The translations under genes were made by a program, and so were the position numbers. Shown piece after piece: positions 2,486-46,954 of a stretch of DNA of 50,083 nucleotides (the first letter of the stretch is position 1; every line of letters starts with the position of its first letter). The stretch is from positions 1-50,083 of the forward strand of contig BJGQ01000021.1 of assembly GCA_014190575.1 (NCBI GenBank). Direction: 5' to 3'. Below the pieces are notes generated by a model, which did no database searches, was not told the DNA's origin, and saw only the letters and a list, made by a program, of their open reading frames with translations. This DNA comes from Bacteroidota bacterium (GTDB taxonomy: Bacteria > Bacteroidota > Bacteroidia > Chitinophagales > UBA10324).

Positions 2486-2493
2486 CAAACTTA
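2486..2493 (-). promoter_or_regulatory. Minus-7 box TAAGTTTG of the L,D-transpeptidase gene
   Basis: An exact match to the Bacteroidota TAnnTTTG minus-7 consensus on the minus strand, ending 5 nt before the ATG at 2480. No clear TTG was found at the expected minus-33 distance. If active, the transcript would be leaderless or nearly so. Confidence 0.35.
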
Positions 2494-4131: not shown

Positions 4132-4139
4132 CGAATTTA
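4132..4139 (-). promoter_or_regulatory. Minus-7-like box TAAATTCG of the Kelch-like T9SS gene
   Basis: Minus-strand TAAATTCG, one base different from TAnnTTTG and identical in form to boxes seen before several other starts in this window. It ends 4 nt before the ATG at 4127. The nearest upstream TTG (4154-4156) leaves only 14 nt, shorter than usual. Confidence 0.35.
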
Positions 4140-8725: not shown

Positions 8726-8733
8726 CAAAAATA
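8726..8733 (-). promoter_or_regulatory. Minus-7 box TATTTTTG of the cytochrome-like lipoprotein
   Basis: Exact TAnnTTTG match on the minus strand, ending 8 nt before the ATG at 8717, which supports that start over the TTG six bases upstream of it. Confidence 0.35.
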
Positions 8734-8849: not shown

Positions 8850-8857
8850 TATTTTCG
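8850..8857 (+). promoter_or_regulatory. Minus-7-like box TATTTTCG of the S9 peptidase
   Basis: TATTTTCG followed by TCACC, 22 nt before the ATG at 8880. The nearest upstream TTG (8822-8824) leaves 25 nt, a little long. The same TATTTTCG-(n)CAC form precedes the TPR gene (17842) and the AlgH gene (26129). Confidence 0.35.
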
Positions 8858-17841: not shown

Positions 17842-17869
17842 CGAAAATATTTTTTCTTTTCTCAATCAA
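17842..17869 (-). promoter_or_regulatory. Candidate promoter TTG-N17-TATTTTCG of the TPR gene
   Basis: On the minus strand TTG (17869-17867) and TATTTTCG (17849-17842) are 17 nt apart. The box ends 8 nt before the ATG at 17833, so the transcript is expected to be leaderless or nearly so. Confidence 0.45.
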
Positions 17870-23643: not shown

Positions 23644-23673
23644 TTGTGACTTGATGATGGATGCTTAGCTTCG
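23644..23673 (+). promoter_or_regulatory. Candidate promoter TTG-N19-TAGCTTCG of the HsdR-N protein
   Basis: TTG at 23644-23646 and TAGCTTCG at 23666-23673 are 19 nt apart. The box ends 4 nt before the ATG at 23678. This is the best spaced example of the TAnnTTCG variant in the window and implies a leaderless transcript. Confidence 0.5.
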
Positions 23674-23677
23674 CCGA

Positions 23678-24130
23678 ATGATGAAACCATTGGAATTAAA
23701 ATTCAGGGAATATACTTTTCGTTTTCGTAAACGCTCAGGTAAGGATGAAGTGTTTGATACTTTACGGAAAAAATTTGTTGCGCTCACACCGGAAGAAAAA
23801 GTTCGGCAACAATTACTAAACTACCTGATTGTTGATTTGCAGTATCCGAAAGGATTAATAGGAGTGGAGAAAGGATTAAATGTAAATGGTAACCCGCGAC
23901 GGATGGATATTGTTGTGTACGACAGAGGTGGTTCTGCTTTTATGATTTTAGAATGCAAGTCACCTTCCGTAAAAATTACGCAGGAAGTTTTTGATCAGGC
24001 TGCCATGTACAATCTAACTTTAAAAGTTCCATACTTAGTTGTATGTAATGGTGATGAAACTTATTGCTGTAAAATCTATTGGGAAGAAAAGGAGTTTGAA
24101 TTTCTTAATGAATTTCCAAAAGTGAATTAA
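23678..24130 (+). CDS. Small PD-(D/E)XK protein, type I restriction HsdR N-terminal domain-like
   Basis: A 150-aa stand-alone domain of the HSDR_N_2 family. The nuclease-fold signature is visible: Glu64 in GVEKGLNV, Asp77 in RRMDIVV, and Glu92-Cys-Lys94 in LECKSP, followed by a conserved helix with DQAAMYNLTL. This would form an active PD-(D/E)XK site, but there is no helicase, specificity or modification subunit nearby, so it is not a restriction system. The gene is divergent from the AMP nucleosidase-holA pair, a pairing often seen in Bacteroidota, which suggests a housekeeping DNA-processing role that is not defined. Two consecutive ATGs (23678, 23681) are possible starts. Confidence 0.87.
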   Translation: MMKPLELKFREYTFRFRKRSGKDEVFDTLRKKFVALTPEEKVRQQLLNYLIVDLQYPKGLIGVEKGLNVNGNPRRMDIVVYDRGGSAFMILECKSPSVKITQEVFDQAAMYNLTLKVPYLVVCNGDETYCCKIYWEEKEFEFLNEFPKVN

Positions 24131-26103: not shown

Positions 26104-26136
26104 TTGAAAAGTAAATGATTGTATGTTCTATTTTCG
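26104..26136 (+). promoter_or_regulatory. Candidate promoter TTG-N22-TATTTTCG of the AlgH-type gene
   Basis: TTG at 26104-26106 and TATTTTCG at 26129-26136 with 22 nt between. The box ends 5 nt before GTG 26142 and lies inside the upstream extension of the frame, which marks GTG 26142 as the likely start. Confidence 0.45.
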
Positions 26137-44330: not shown

Positions 44331-44362
44331 CGAATTTATACTTTCTCACCTAGGTTATTCAA
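44331..44362 (-). promoter_or_regulatory. Candidate internal promoter TTG-N21-TAAATTCG of lolA
   Basis: On the minus strand TTG (44362-44360) and TAAATTCG (44338-44331) are 21 nt apart, overlapping the last codons and stop of ftsK. The box ends 8 nt before the lolA ATG (44322), supporting this start and allowing lolA expression apart from ftsK. Confidence 0.42.
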
Positions 44363-46954
44363 GAACTGTTCCAATGCGTAACTATCTTTTATTAAAACTT
44401 CGCGTGCCTTACTTCCCTGATTGGGGCCAACTACTCCGGCTTGTTCCAATTGATCCATTAATCTTCCTGCACGATTGTATCCTAATTTCATCCGTCGCTG
44501 AATCAAAGAAGTAGAACCTTGTTGGTGTTGAACAATTAATCGAGCAGCTTCTTCAAACATTTCATCTTTTTCATCCGGATCAAATGCATCATCACCTCCT
44601 TCACCTTCTTCATCGGCAACTTCAGGTAATAAATGCGCATCAGGATATCCATGTTGTTGTCCTATGAACTCAGTAACTTTTTCAACTTCGGGAGTATCAA
44701 TAAAAGCGCATTGCAAACGAATGACTTCACCATTAATTGAAATCAACATATCACCACGACCAATCAATTGGTCTGCTCCACCTGTATCAAGAATAGTTCG
44801 CGAATCGATTTTAGAAGAAACTTTAAATGCAATTCTAGCAGGGAAATTTGCTTTTATTGTCCCTGTGATAATATTCACTGAAGGTCGTTGAGTGGCAATG
44901 ATTAAGTGAATACCAATAGCGCGAGCCAACTGTGCTAAACGAGCAATTGGAGTTTCAATTTCTTTTCCTGCTGTCATTATTAAATCTGCAAACTCATCTA
45001 TCACTAACACTATGTAAGGTAGAAAACGGTGGCCTTTATTCGGATTCAACCTGCGTGAAATAAATTTTTCGTTGTATTCTTTTAAATTTCTGCAACCTGC
45101 TTCCTTCAATAAATTATATCGCTGATCCATTTCAATACAAAGTGCTTTCAGAGTATTGATTACTTTTTTGGTGTCAACAATAATCGGTTCTTCTTCGCCA
45201 GGAAGTTTTGCAAGGAAATGTTTTTCAATAATGCTGTATAAACTCAGCTCCACTTTTTTCGGATCAACCAAAACAAATTTTAATTGTGACGGATGCTTTT
45301 TATACAACAATGAAACAAGCAACGCATTAATACCAACTGATTTCCCCTGACCGGTTGCGCCTGCCATTAGCAAGTGTGGCATTTTTGATAAATCGGCAAT
45401 GAAAATTTCGTTGCTGATTGTTTTACCAAGAGCAATAGGTAAATCATAAGTTGTGTTCTGAAATTTTTCTGATGCGAGTAATGTGCGCATGCTCACTACT
45501 TCTTTATTGATGTTCGGTACTTCAATACCAATTGTTCCTTTACCCGGAATAGGTGCGATGATGCGAATGCCGAGTGCAGCTAAACTCAATGCTATATCGT
45601 CCTCAAGGTTTTTTATTTTACTGATGCGAACACCGGGAGCAGGAATAATTTCATACAAAGTAACAGTTGGCCCAACTGTCGCTTTTATTTTTTGAATTTC
45701 AATTCCATAATTCTGAAGTGTGCCAATGATTTGGTTTTTATTCCGTTCTAATTCTTCAGTATCTATTTTTATTTTTTCACTGCCGTAAACTTCCAGCAAA
45801 TCCAATTCAGGATATTTATAATTACTTAAATCAAGTGTTGGATCATACAATCCAAGTGGAGTGTTTTCAATTTCTTCTGCAACTTCTTCAACTGGAGTTT
45901 CAACAATATCCAGTTCTAAATCTTCATCATAATCGGGATTAAATGGTTCTTCTGTTTCAACTTCCTGATTTAATTCTAACTCCTGAGATGATACGATTGG
46001 ATCAGCAGTGAAAGTATTTGATAATGAAATTTCATTTGGCTGTTCTTCTTTCTTTTTGTTTGATGATTCGCTAAATGAAGGAGTGGCTTGCGTGGGAACA
46101 ATGGTAAATGCTTTTGATTTATCAACGGTTACAATGGAATGTTGTAATGTATTTTCATTTTCAATAACCACAGTTTGTTTTTCTTCTCTTCTGAAATTAA
46201 AATTGAAAACAGTAACCAGGTAACCAAGAATTGAAAATGAAAGTAAAGTTCCGGTTCCTATTTGTCCGAGATAACCGAGTAAAATATCGTTGATGTAAAT
46301 TCCGAATGCACCACCGTACGGAAAAGTTTTATTCTGAAAAATAAAAGCGAGTACGGGTGCAAGAATTATGGTGAGAGCAAAACAGTGCTTAAAAATTCTT
46401 ACCGTCGGTATAATTTTATTCTGAAGCAAACGATTCACCCCATAAGAAAAAATAAAAGGTATAGTGAGAAAAGCAGTTAAACCATATCCGTTCCATATAA
46501 AGAGATGAGAAATATATGCACCAAGTTTTCCCATATGATTGCCGGCTTTGATGGTTGCATCAAAAAATATTGCCCAACTGAATGGATAAATAGTGGAGCG
46601 GTCACCAGCACCGGTAAAAAGATATGAGACAAATGATACAGTTAGAAATACGGTGAACAACAAAGAGAATAGCCCACTAAGTTTTTTAAACCGCTCGCTG
46701 CGTATGAACTGAATGGCTTGTGAAAAAGCCGAAGGTGTTTTTTCTTTTTTATCTTTTGTTTTCTTTTCTGTTTCTGCTTTGGGCTTTTTATCCCGCACAA
46801 CTTTTTTCTTTTCTGTTTTTGCAACAGGTGCTTCTTCCTCCTCCTCAATAATTTCTTCTTCGCTCTGTTCTGCTATCTCCACAAATTGATCGTCTATATC
46901 AAGATCAATTTCTTCTTTCTTGGGTTTTAATCGATTGGTTGTTTTTTCAGCCAT
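44336..46954 (-). CDS. ftsK: DNA translocase FtsK
   Basis: An 872-aa division-septum ATPase that pumps DNA to clear and resolve chromosome termini. A long acidic/lysine-rich N-terminus (about 1-80) precedes four or five transmembrane helices (about 95-265). A Glu/Pro-rich linker spans about 270-390. The motor (about 400-740) has Walker A GATGQGKS near 531-538 and Walker B LVIDEFADLI near 648-657. The C-terminal winged-helix gamma domain (about 795-865; STSLIQRRMKLGYNRAGRLM) recognises KOPS-type DNA in other species. The size is in the usual range. A TACTTTTC sequence at 46984-46991 may be its promoter. It is followed by lolA. Confidence 0.97.
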   Translation of the reverse strand: MAEKTTNRLKPKKEEIDLDIDDQFVEIAEQSEEEIIEEEEEAPVAKTEKKKVVRDKKPKAETEKKTKDKKEKTPSAFSQAIQFIRSERFKKLSGLFSLLFTVFLTVSFVSYLFTGAGDRSTIYPFSWAIFFDATIKAGNHMGKLGAYISHLFIWNGYGLTAFLTIPFIFSYGVNRLLQNKIIPTVRIFKHCFALTIILAPVLAFIFQNKTFPYGGAFGIYINDILLGYLGQIGTGTLLSFSILGYLVTVFNFNFRREEKQTVVIENENTLQHSIVTVDKSKAFTIVPTQATPSFSESSNKKKEEQPNEISLSNTFTADPIVSSQELELNQEVETEEPFNPDYDEDLELDIVETPVEEVAEEIENTPLGLYDPTLDLSNYKYPELDLLEVYGSEKIKIDTEELERNKNQIIGTLQNYGIEIQKIKATVGPTVTLYEIIPAPGVRISKIKNLEDDIALSLAALGIRIIAPIPGKGTIGIEVPNINKEVVSMRTLLASEKFQNTTYDLPIALGKTISNEIFIADLSKMPHLLMAGATGQGKSVGINALLVSLLYKKHPSQLKFVLVDPKKVELSLYSIIEKHFLAKLPGEEEPIIVDTKKVINTLKALCIEMDQRYNLLKEAGCRNLKEYNEKFISRRLNPNKGHRFLPYIVLVIDEFADLIMTAGKEIETPIARLAQLARAIGIHLIIATQRPSVNIITGTIKANFPARIAFKVSSKIDSRTILDTGGADQLIGRGDMLISINGEVIRLQCAFIDTPEVEKVTEFIGQQHGYPDAHLLPEVADEEGEGGDDAFDPDEKDEMFEEAARLIVQHQQGSTSLIQRRMKLGYNRAGRLMDQLEQAGVVGPNQGSKAREVLIKDSYALEQFLNNLGEKV

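Follow-up and report, generated by a model that had tools for sequence, protein, structure and literature searches.

The gene shown above is preceded, 4 nt before its ATG, by a box of the form TAnnTTCG, which raises the questions of whether this lineage uses C at the seventh base of the minus-7 promoter element, and of whether a promoter so close to the start codon yields an mRNA without a leader. In Bacteroidota, the promoter of the primary sigma factor (sigma-ABfr) reads TTTG/TAnnTTTG, with its elements at −33 and −7. We examined the whole 50,083-nt stretch of DNA (the window), a larger sample of the same genome and the genomes of relatives. Comparison of these sequences indicates, with a probability that we put at about 0.8, that TAnnTTCG is the ordinary housekeeping minus-7 element with T or C accepted at the seventh base (TAnnTTYG), about one-fifth of such promoters being predicted to be leaderless.

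Predictions on the mRNA 5′ end were taken from Flavobacterium johnsoniae, in which RNA-seq separated box and start site by 4 or 5 nt (PMC6847099). Transcription would be expected to begin 4–5 nt past the box, so that a gap of 4–5 nt to the start codon would place the 5′ end on the AUG and a gap of 6–8 nt would place it 1–4 nt upstream. A box at 4–8 nt (close) would then give an mRNA beginning at the AUG or within ~4 nt of it, with no room for a ribosome-binding leader, and ribosomes would have to translate it as leaderless mRNA, while a box at 17–27 nt (leadered) would give an mRNA with a short leader.

Boxes and genes in the window

A sequence-only reading of the window had listed six TAnnTTCG boxes near start codons and eight of the canonical form TAnnTTTG (2486, 8290, 8726, 14239, 31287, 31328, 34191 and 47097), and we found all of them, the six on the strands reported. 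Its statement that five of the six end 4–8 nt before the chosen start was also correct (boxes at 4132, 4 nt; 17842, 8 nt; 23666, 4 nt; 44331, 8 nt; 26129, 5 nt), the last being measured to a GTG. The longest open reading frame at this AlgH-like gene begins at ATG 26115, 5′ of the box, which would fall within the gene if that ATG were the true start; the PF02622 match begins at residue 27 of the longer frame, and box and match together suggest that translation starts without a leader at GTG 26142. TTG trinucleotides upstream of the boxes, said to be three, are four (17867, 23644, 44360 and 26104), with spacers of 17, 19, 21 and 22 nt, respectively. The HSDR_N_2-family protein was present in 20 of 20 genomes searched, counting its own. 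The TAA of the box at 44331–44338 doubles as the stop codon of an upstream ftsK-like gene (44336–46954).

Table 1 Coordinates of promoter boxes and genes in the window, and of the RpoD-like protein considered as an alternative reader
Feature	Position	Strand	Distance or remark
TAGCTTCG, minus-7 box	23666..23673	+	4 nt to ATG 23678, 7 nt to second ATG
TTG, possible minus-33 element (weak)	23644..23646	+	19 nt 5′ of 23666 box
Gene for 150-aa HSDR_N_2-family protein (PF13588)	23678..24130	+	downstream of 23666 box
TAAATTCG box	4132..4139	−	4 nt to ATG 4127; protein with T9SS sorting tail (PF18962)
TATTTTCG box	17842..17849	−	8 nt to ATG 17833; TPR protein
TAAATTCG box	44331..44338	−	8 nt to ATG 44322; LolA-like protein
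TATTTTCG box	26129..26136	+	5 nt to GTG 26142; AlgH-like gene
TATTTTCG box, leadered example	8850..8857	+	22 nt to ATG 8880; S9 peptidase
TAAGTTTG canonical box, close class with T	2486..2493	−	5 nt to ATG 2480
TATTTTTG canonical box	8726..8733	−	8 nt to ATG 8717
Second full-length RpoD-like protein	C3:130388-131254 (L042/L193)		57% identical to C20:29583-30446 (L041)

Counted over the entire window, TAnnTTCG shows no excess (16 boxes vs. 22.8 by shuffles), and since the total of neither box is raised, the only possible signal is box position. With our own gene calls, four TTCG boxes lie at 4–8 nt in 45 genes, where 0.05 would be expected. TAnnTTTG is depleted by about half over both strands of the window (36 vs. 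78 by shuffles), perhaps because stray minus-7 boxes are avoided within genes.

Enrichment upstream of start codons

We assessed position in a sample of the assembly (3.19 Mb in 91 contigs, the window being contig 21) that comprised 60 stretches and 1.249 Mb including the window, or 39% of the genome. A home-made and crude caller based on open reading frames and hexamers gave 941 genes, 930 with enough flank, and starts were set at the first ATG of the frame where present (ATG in 922 of 930). The sequence-only reading had proposed counting TAnnTTCG and TAnnTTTG against shuffled controls in 60-nt upstream windows, and on this 39% of the genome the outcome was strongly positive, with the predicted 4–8 nt spacing. 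TTCG boxes numbered 57 (mean of 100 dinucleotide shuffles 13.2, maximum 24) and were enriched on the sense strand, with only 5 on the antisense strand; TTTG boxes numbered 157 (shuffle mean 43.6; 16 antisense). There was no excess of TTAG (11 vs. 15.6 by shuffles) or TTGG (9 vs. 13.7) in the same windows. When all TAnnXXXX boxes with at least 5 occurrences at 4–8 or 17–27 nt were ranked by enrichment over the distal background, TTCG came out on top (11.0-fold), followed by TTTG (9.6-fold). TTCG boxes differ from the TAnnTTTG consensus at the seventh base and coexist with it in this genome at the same distances; the box behaves like a primary-sigma minus-7 element and is classed as a variant of it.

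The 885 genes outside the window repeated the pattern, with 14, 3 and 17 TTCG boxes at 4–8, 9–16 and 17–27 nt and ~1 expected at 4–8 nt (distal background of 16 boxes over 81 offsets), so that the result is independent of the examples in the sequence-only reading.

Gene-anchored counts replaced raw pattern counting over the whole genome, which was dropped because of its high coding background. Raw counts before ATG at 4–8 vs. 10–14 nt (offsets 6 apart, hence equal reading phases) were 125/107 for TTCG (z = 1.2) and 217/167 for TTTG (z = 2.6), weak because coding matches dominate. A reversed pattern gave 31 matches vs. 21 for TTCG and ATG with a 6-nt gap, and was set aside as a poor control since its composition differs.

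Two other boxes were enriched in the sample (4–8 and 17–27 nt combined): TAnnTTTA (58 boxes, 3.4-fold) and TAnnTTGC (17 boxes, 3.7-fold), the latter resembling the SM5 motif of F. psychrophilum, in which TA and TTG are one base closer together (PMC9723704).

Two distances between box and start codon

Distances from box to start were bimodal, with peaks at 4–8 and 17–27 nt. TTCG boxes numbered 18, 3 and 18 at 4–8, 9–16 and 17–27 nt among the 930 genes (0.99, 1.58 and 2.17 expected), and TTTG boxes 24, 16 and 74 (3.15, 5.04 and 6.93 expected), such that the TTTG trough still exceeds background. Forty-two boxes thus lie too close to the start for a leader, separated by the trough at 9–16 nt from those farther away, and gaps of 4–5 nt account for 14 of the TTTG and 9 of the TTCG boxes. 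After background correction, the close class makes up 22% of TTYG boxes at 4–59 nt. Of the 134 boxes at 4–8 or 17–27 nt, 36 have C as their seventh base, and the share of C is larger in the close than in the leadered class (18/42 vs. 18/92; Fisher P = 0.0065). The proposal that this lineage uses C at the seventh position therefore stands as far as TTCG is enriched at starts, with C being a minority alternative and no replacement for T. The next base after TTCG is commonly C, as the sequence-only reading had remarked (14 of 18 close boxes in the sample).

Close boxes of either form mostly preceded likely first genes: 37 of 42 stand before genes with a divergent neighbor (20 of 272 such genes) or a wide gap to a same-strand neighbor (at least 50 nt; 17 of 380). 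Where the same-strand neighbor overlaps or lies within 30 nt, 5 of 213 genes have one (C 3, T 2), and none of the remaining 65 genes does. A TTG at a spacer of 17–22 nt was found upstream of 12 of 43 TTCG boxes (6.5 expected) and 37 of 124 TTTG boxes (18.7 expected), a weak excess of about twofold. An ECF-type promoter, which carries a CGT box around −10 (SM6 in PMC9723704), was considered and rejected, as T follows TTCG in only 3 of the 18 boxes of the close class and 2 of the 18 of the leadered class.

Start codons and conservation

The positions of starts were checked for 10 of the 42 close genes, picked as recognizable, by scanning the first 110 residues against NCBIfam. Homology supported nine of the ten starts, the match beginning within the first 14 residues and at profile position 1–5: at residue 5 in GuaA, 9 in GlyS, 4 in Gmk, 14 or 4 by model in ThiL, 6 in RecR, 2 in LepA, 1 in RadA, 9 or 5 in RibD and 4 in a cystathionine beta-synthase/cysteine synthase family protein. 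In TilS, the match starts only at residue 21. Scores fell below curated cut-offs because 110-residue fragments were compared with full-length models. In nine of the 10 genes tested (of 42), the codon adjoining the box is thus indicated as the true start. Housekeeping genes are among those with close boxes: guaA, glyS, gmk, recR, radA and thiL, and lepA with T (profile match).

Comparison with congeners covered 109 orthologue pairs with agreeing N-termini, of which six had a close box in the genome of the window, and it was kept in five. One of these pairs swaps C for T (TATATTCGCCGCATG to TACTTTTGCCGCATG, with GCCGCATG kept), and in the thiL pair TATTTTCGCRCCATG is kept though the upstream flank has changed; at C3:83047, the one exception, the close box is not kept in the congener orthologue. 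In another congener pair, a TTCG box of the relative belongs to the close class, and the same box in the genome of the window lies 1 nt before the first ATG and 4 nt before the second. Outside the genus, 12 orthologue pairs within the family showed one close box lost and two present in the relative only, and there were no close boxes among nine pairs with LGM1 (Chitinophagaceae).

Alternative explanations

Chance or base composition would explain the boxes if AT-rich upstream DNA simply yielded TAnnTTCG and the six cases had been picked by eye, a real risk given that the box is below shuffle expectation window-wide. With 14 boxes at 4–8 nt before the 885 outside genes, where ~1 was expected, and with TTAG and TTGG flat in the same genome, this explanation is effectively excluded within the 39% of the genome that was sampled, and we regard its probability as negligible. 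The box might instead act in translation initiation, as an unusual kind of ribosome-binding region with transcripts beginning further upstream; it adjoins start codons, and the phylum lacks Shine-Dalgarno sequences (PMC6847099, PMC10783764). We consider this very unlikely, as boxes are rare before genes closely following or overlapping a same-strand neighbor, which need a translation signal equally, and as the boxes occur at two discrete distances with the TA and G letters of the known minus-7 element.

A further alternative is that TTCG boxes are read by the second RpoD-like sigma factor (Table 1), such that T and C boxes form two regulons. All five congeners searched carry this protein at 96–100% identity, and it occurs (63–89%) in 8 of 10 other genomes of the family, the two without it being 72% and 86% complete. 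When the N-terminal 140 residues of the primary RpoD were compared between this genome and those of 11 relatives, residues ~28–55 varied, but the YLxEIG segment and residues ~56–140 were nearly unchanged, which leaves no obvious reason there for tolerance of C; the second protein reads YLSDIA instead of YLxEIG. We take the N-terminal segment that differs between the two proteins to be region 1.2. Against two regulons, LGM1 has two RpoD-like proteins yet no C boxes (0 of 27), Hymenobacter latericoloratus has one yet a weak TTCG excess (76/51, z = 2.2), an orthologous promoter swaps T and C, and T and C boxes are otherwise alike in position and context. We therefore view this alternative as improbable; the primary sigma factor is the likely reader of the C form, with the second protein as its rival. 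Two candidate causes of C use were rejected: no residue change was evident in the N-terminal 140 residues compared for the primary RpoD, and the number of RpoD-like proteins does not track TTCG.

Of 60 genomes in the order, 48 had two or more RpoD-like matches; a single one was found in 9 of 11 Cytophagales, 2 of 2 Sphingobacteriales and 2 of 3 Bacteroidales among named genomes. The closest named RpoD matches came from Saprospiraceae, Chitinophagales and unclassified Bacteroidetes MAGs (at most 88%; records of the genome itself were possibly left out of those listed).

Distribution across relatives and the phylum

The share of C at 4–8 or 17–27 nt was 36/134 in the genome of the window, 14/54 in congener G003, 4/20 in the other congeners and 5/19 in the rest of the family, compared with 0/27 in LGM1 and 2/20 in Parabacteroides (140–384 genes per sample, the first genome excepted); the family differed from LGM1 (59/227 vs. 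0/27; Fisher P = 0.001). The corrected close share was 0.22, 0.11, 0.22, 0.36, 0.38 and 0.01 in the same order. Many leaderless transcripts had been proposed for this lineage, and the predicted 4–8 nt spacing agrees with this; TTTG boxes, too, are found in the close class, and the close boxes of LGM1 show that the class is not special to the lineage. In the four other congeners, which had only four TTCG boxes in the close and leadered classes, the 9–16 nt trough was absent (11 boxes vs. 9 at 4–8 nt, 202 genes). Parabacteroides massiliensis, used as a method control, had 1 close and 38 leadered boxes (17–59 nt), in agreement with B. thetaiotaomicron, in which 3.7% of 5′ UTRs are <10 nt (PMC7366714).

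The contrast between 4–8 and 10–14 nt was extended to 77 whole genomes grouped by record title, with five left ungrouped (Table 2), and gene-level checks with a cruder caller covered 73 of 80 named loci and yielded few boxes (Table 3). The whole-genome excess in Hymenobacter and in two Flavobacteriales-labelled MAGs is unconfirmed at gene level because no close box occurred in the small samples available (81 genes, with ~1–2 close boxes expected by estimate, and 15 genes, respectively). Near ATG, these MAGs had TTCG counts of 128/45 (G136, L105) and 137/68 (G137, L119) and TTTG counts of 89/33 and 94/65, which suggests that, beside ATG, C boxes outnumber T boxes in both.

Table 2 Whole-genome counts of boxes before ATG, given as 4–8 nt/10–14 nt
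Group (genomes)	TTTG	TTCG
Own genus (6)	1395/1104	747/640
Rest of family (10)	1832/1581	867/806
Rest of order (20)	7303/6429	2473/2325
Chitinophagaceae (8)	3017/2249	1339/1174
Saprospiraceae (5)	2497/2357	595/599
Sphingobacteriales (5)	2922/2491	1064/1016
Cytophagales without Hymenobacter (9)	4541/4070	1964/1843
Hymenobacter (2)	297/111	160/90
Flavobacteriales-labelled MAGs (2)	183/98	265/113
Bacteroidales (3)	675/697	432/392

Table 3 Boxes before genes called with the cruder caller, given as close (4–8 nt)/leadered (17–27 nt)
Group (genes)	TTTG	TTCG
Saprospiraceae-labelled (145)	4/5	1/2
Other Chitinophagales-like (294)	4/13	1/2
Cytophagales (300)	0/7	1/2
Sphingobacteriales (103)	2/6	0/0
Bacteroidales (81)	1/6	0/1

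Relation to known promoters and leaderless genes

The boxes share with the sigma-ABfr promoter the TA and G, the spacing, the strand and possibly a weak upstream TTG, and TAnnTTTG is the commoner form here; unlike that promoter, about a quarter (59/227) in this family have C at the seventh base. In F. johnsoniae, this base is a nearly invariant T (PMC6847099). F. psychrophilum SM1–SM3 are variations around TAnnTTTG, and SM5 (TAnnTTGY) is another altered minus-7 box in the same location, with the distance from TA to TTG shortened; the accessible text of that report describes no C at the seventh base for SM1–SM3 or SM5 (PMC9723704). In the accessible part of the open-access literature, we found neither the TTYG box, nor its two distances, nor the C variant in print. 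The strings TANNTTCG, TAnnTTYG and TANNTTNG were absent from the open-access literature searched, all matches listed for TATTTTCG were unrelated by title, and searches of that literature for leaderless mRNA in Bacteroidetes/Bacteroidota, Chitinophagales and Hymenobacter gave no report of this kind.

Leaderless genes in Actinobacteria, Deinococcus-Thermus and archaea likewise have their promoter element immediately 5′ of the start codon, so that the transcript begins there (PMC3160421). Of the 37 Bacteroidetes/Chlorobi genomes in that survey of 953 bacteria, 1 was reported to have leaderless genes (2.4%); unlike our counts, the survey detects Pribnow-like elements in bacteria, and it warns that it misses promoters of other kinds. 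According to start-site maps of two species, ~4–6% of mRNAs are leaderless or nearly so (PMC7366714, PMC9723704), with 5.5% leaderless mRNAs in F. psychrophilum, and 87% of F. johnsoniae leaders are >10 nt (PMC6847099). StartLink assigned AT-rich ribosome-binding sites to the FCB group (PMC9581028).

The close-box class, presumably leaderless, is presumably under-appreciated in this part of Bacteroidota. We give roughly even odds to a wider version, in which much of Bacteroidota outside Bacteroidales would have a substantial leaderless class arising from the ordinary minus-7 box, and some lineages would have shifted toward TAnnTTCG, the two Flavobacteriales-labelled MAGs past the T form. The class would have been under-counted because the main survey sought Pribnow-like boxes and the start-site maps that we found are from Bacteroides and Flavobacterium. 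If about one-fifth of box-bearing promoters lack a leader (perhaps more in some relatives, from small samples), they would allow a direct test of how ribosomes start, and would help to annotate start codons and predict promoters more precisely in environmental Bacteroidota, where the consensus TAnnTTTG would cover only part of promoter space. In congener G003 (L161–L163, L223–L242), TAnnTTAG, which is flat in the genome of the window, was enriched 3.9-fold before starts (8 boxes).
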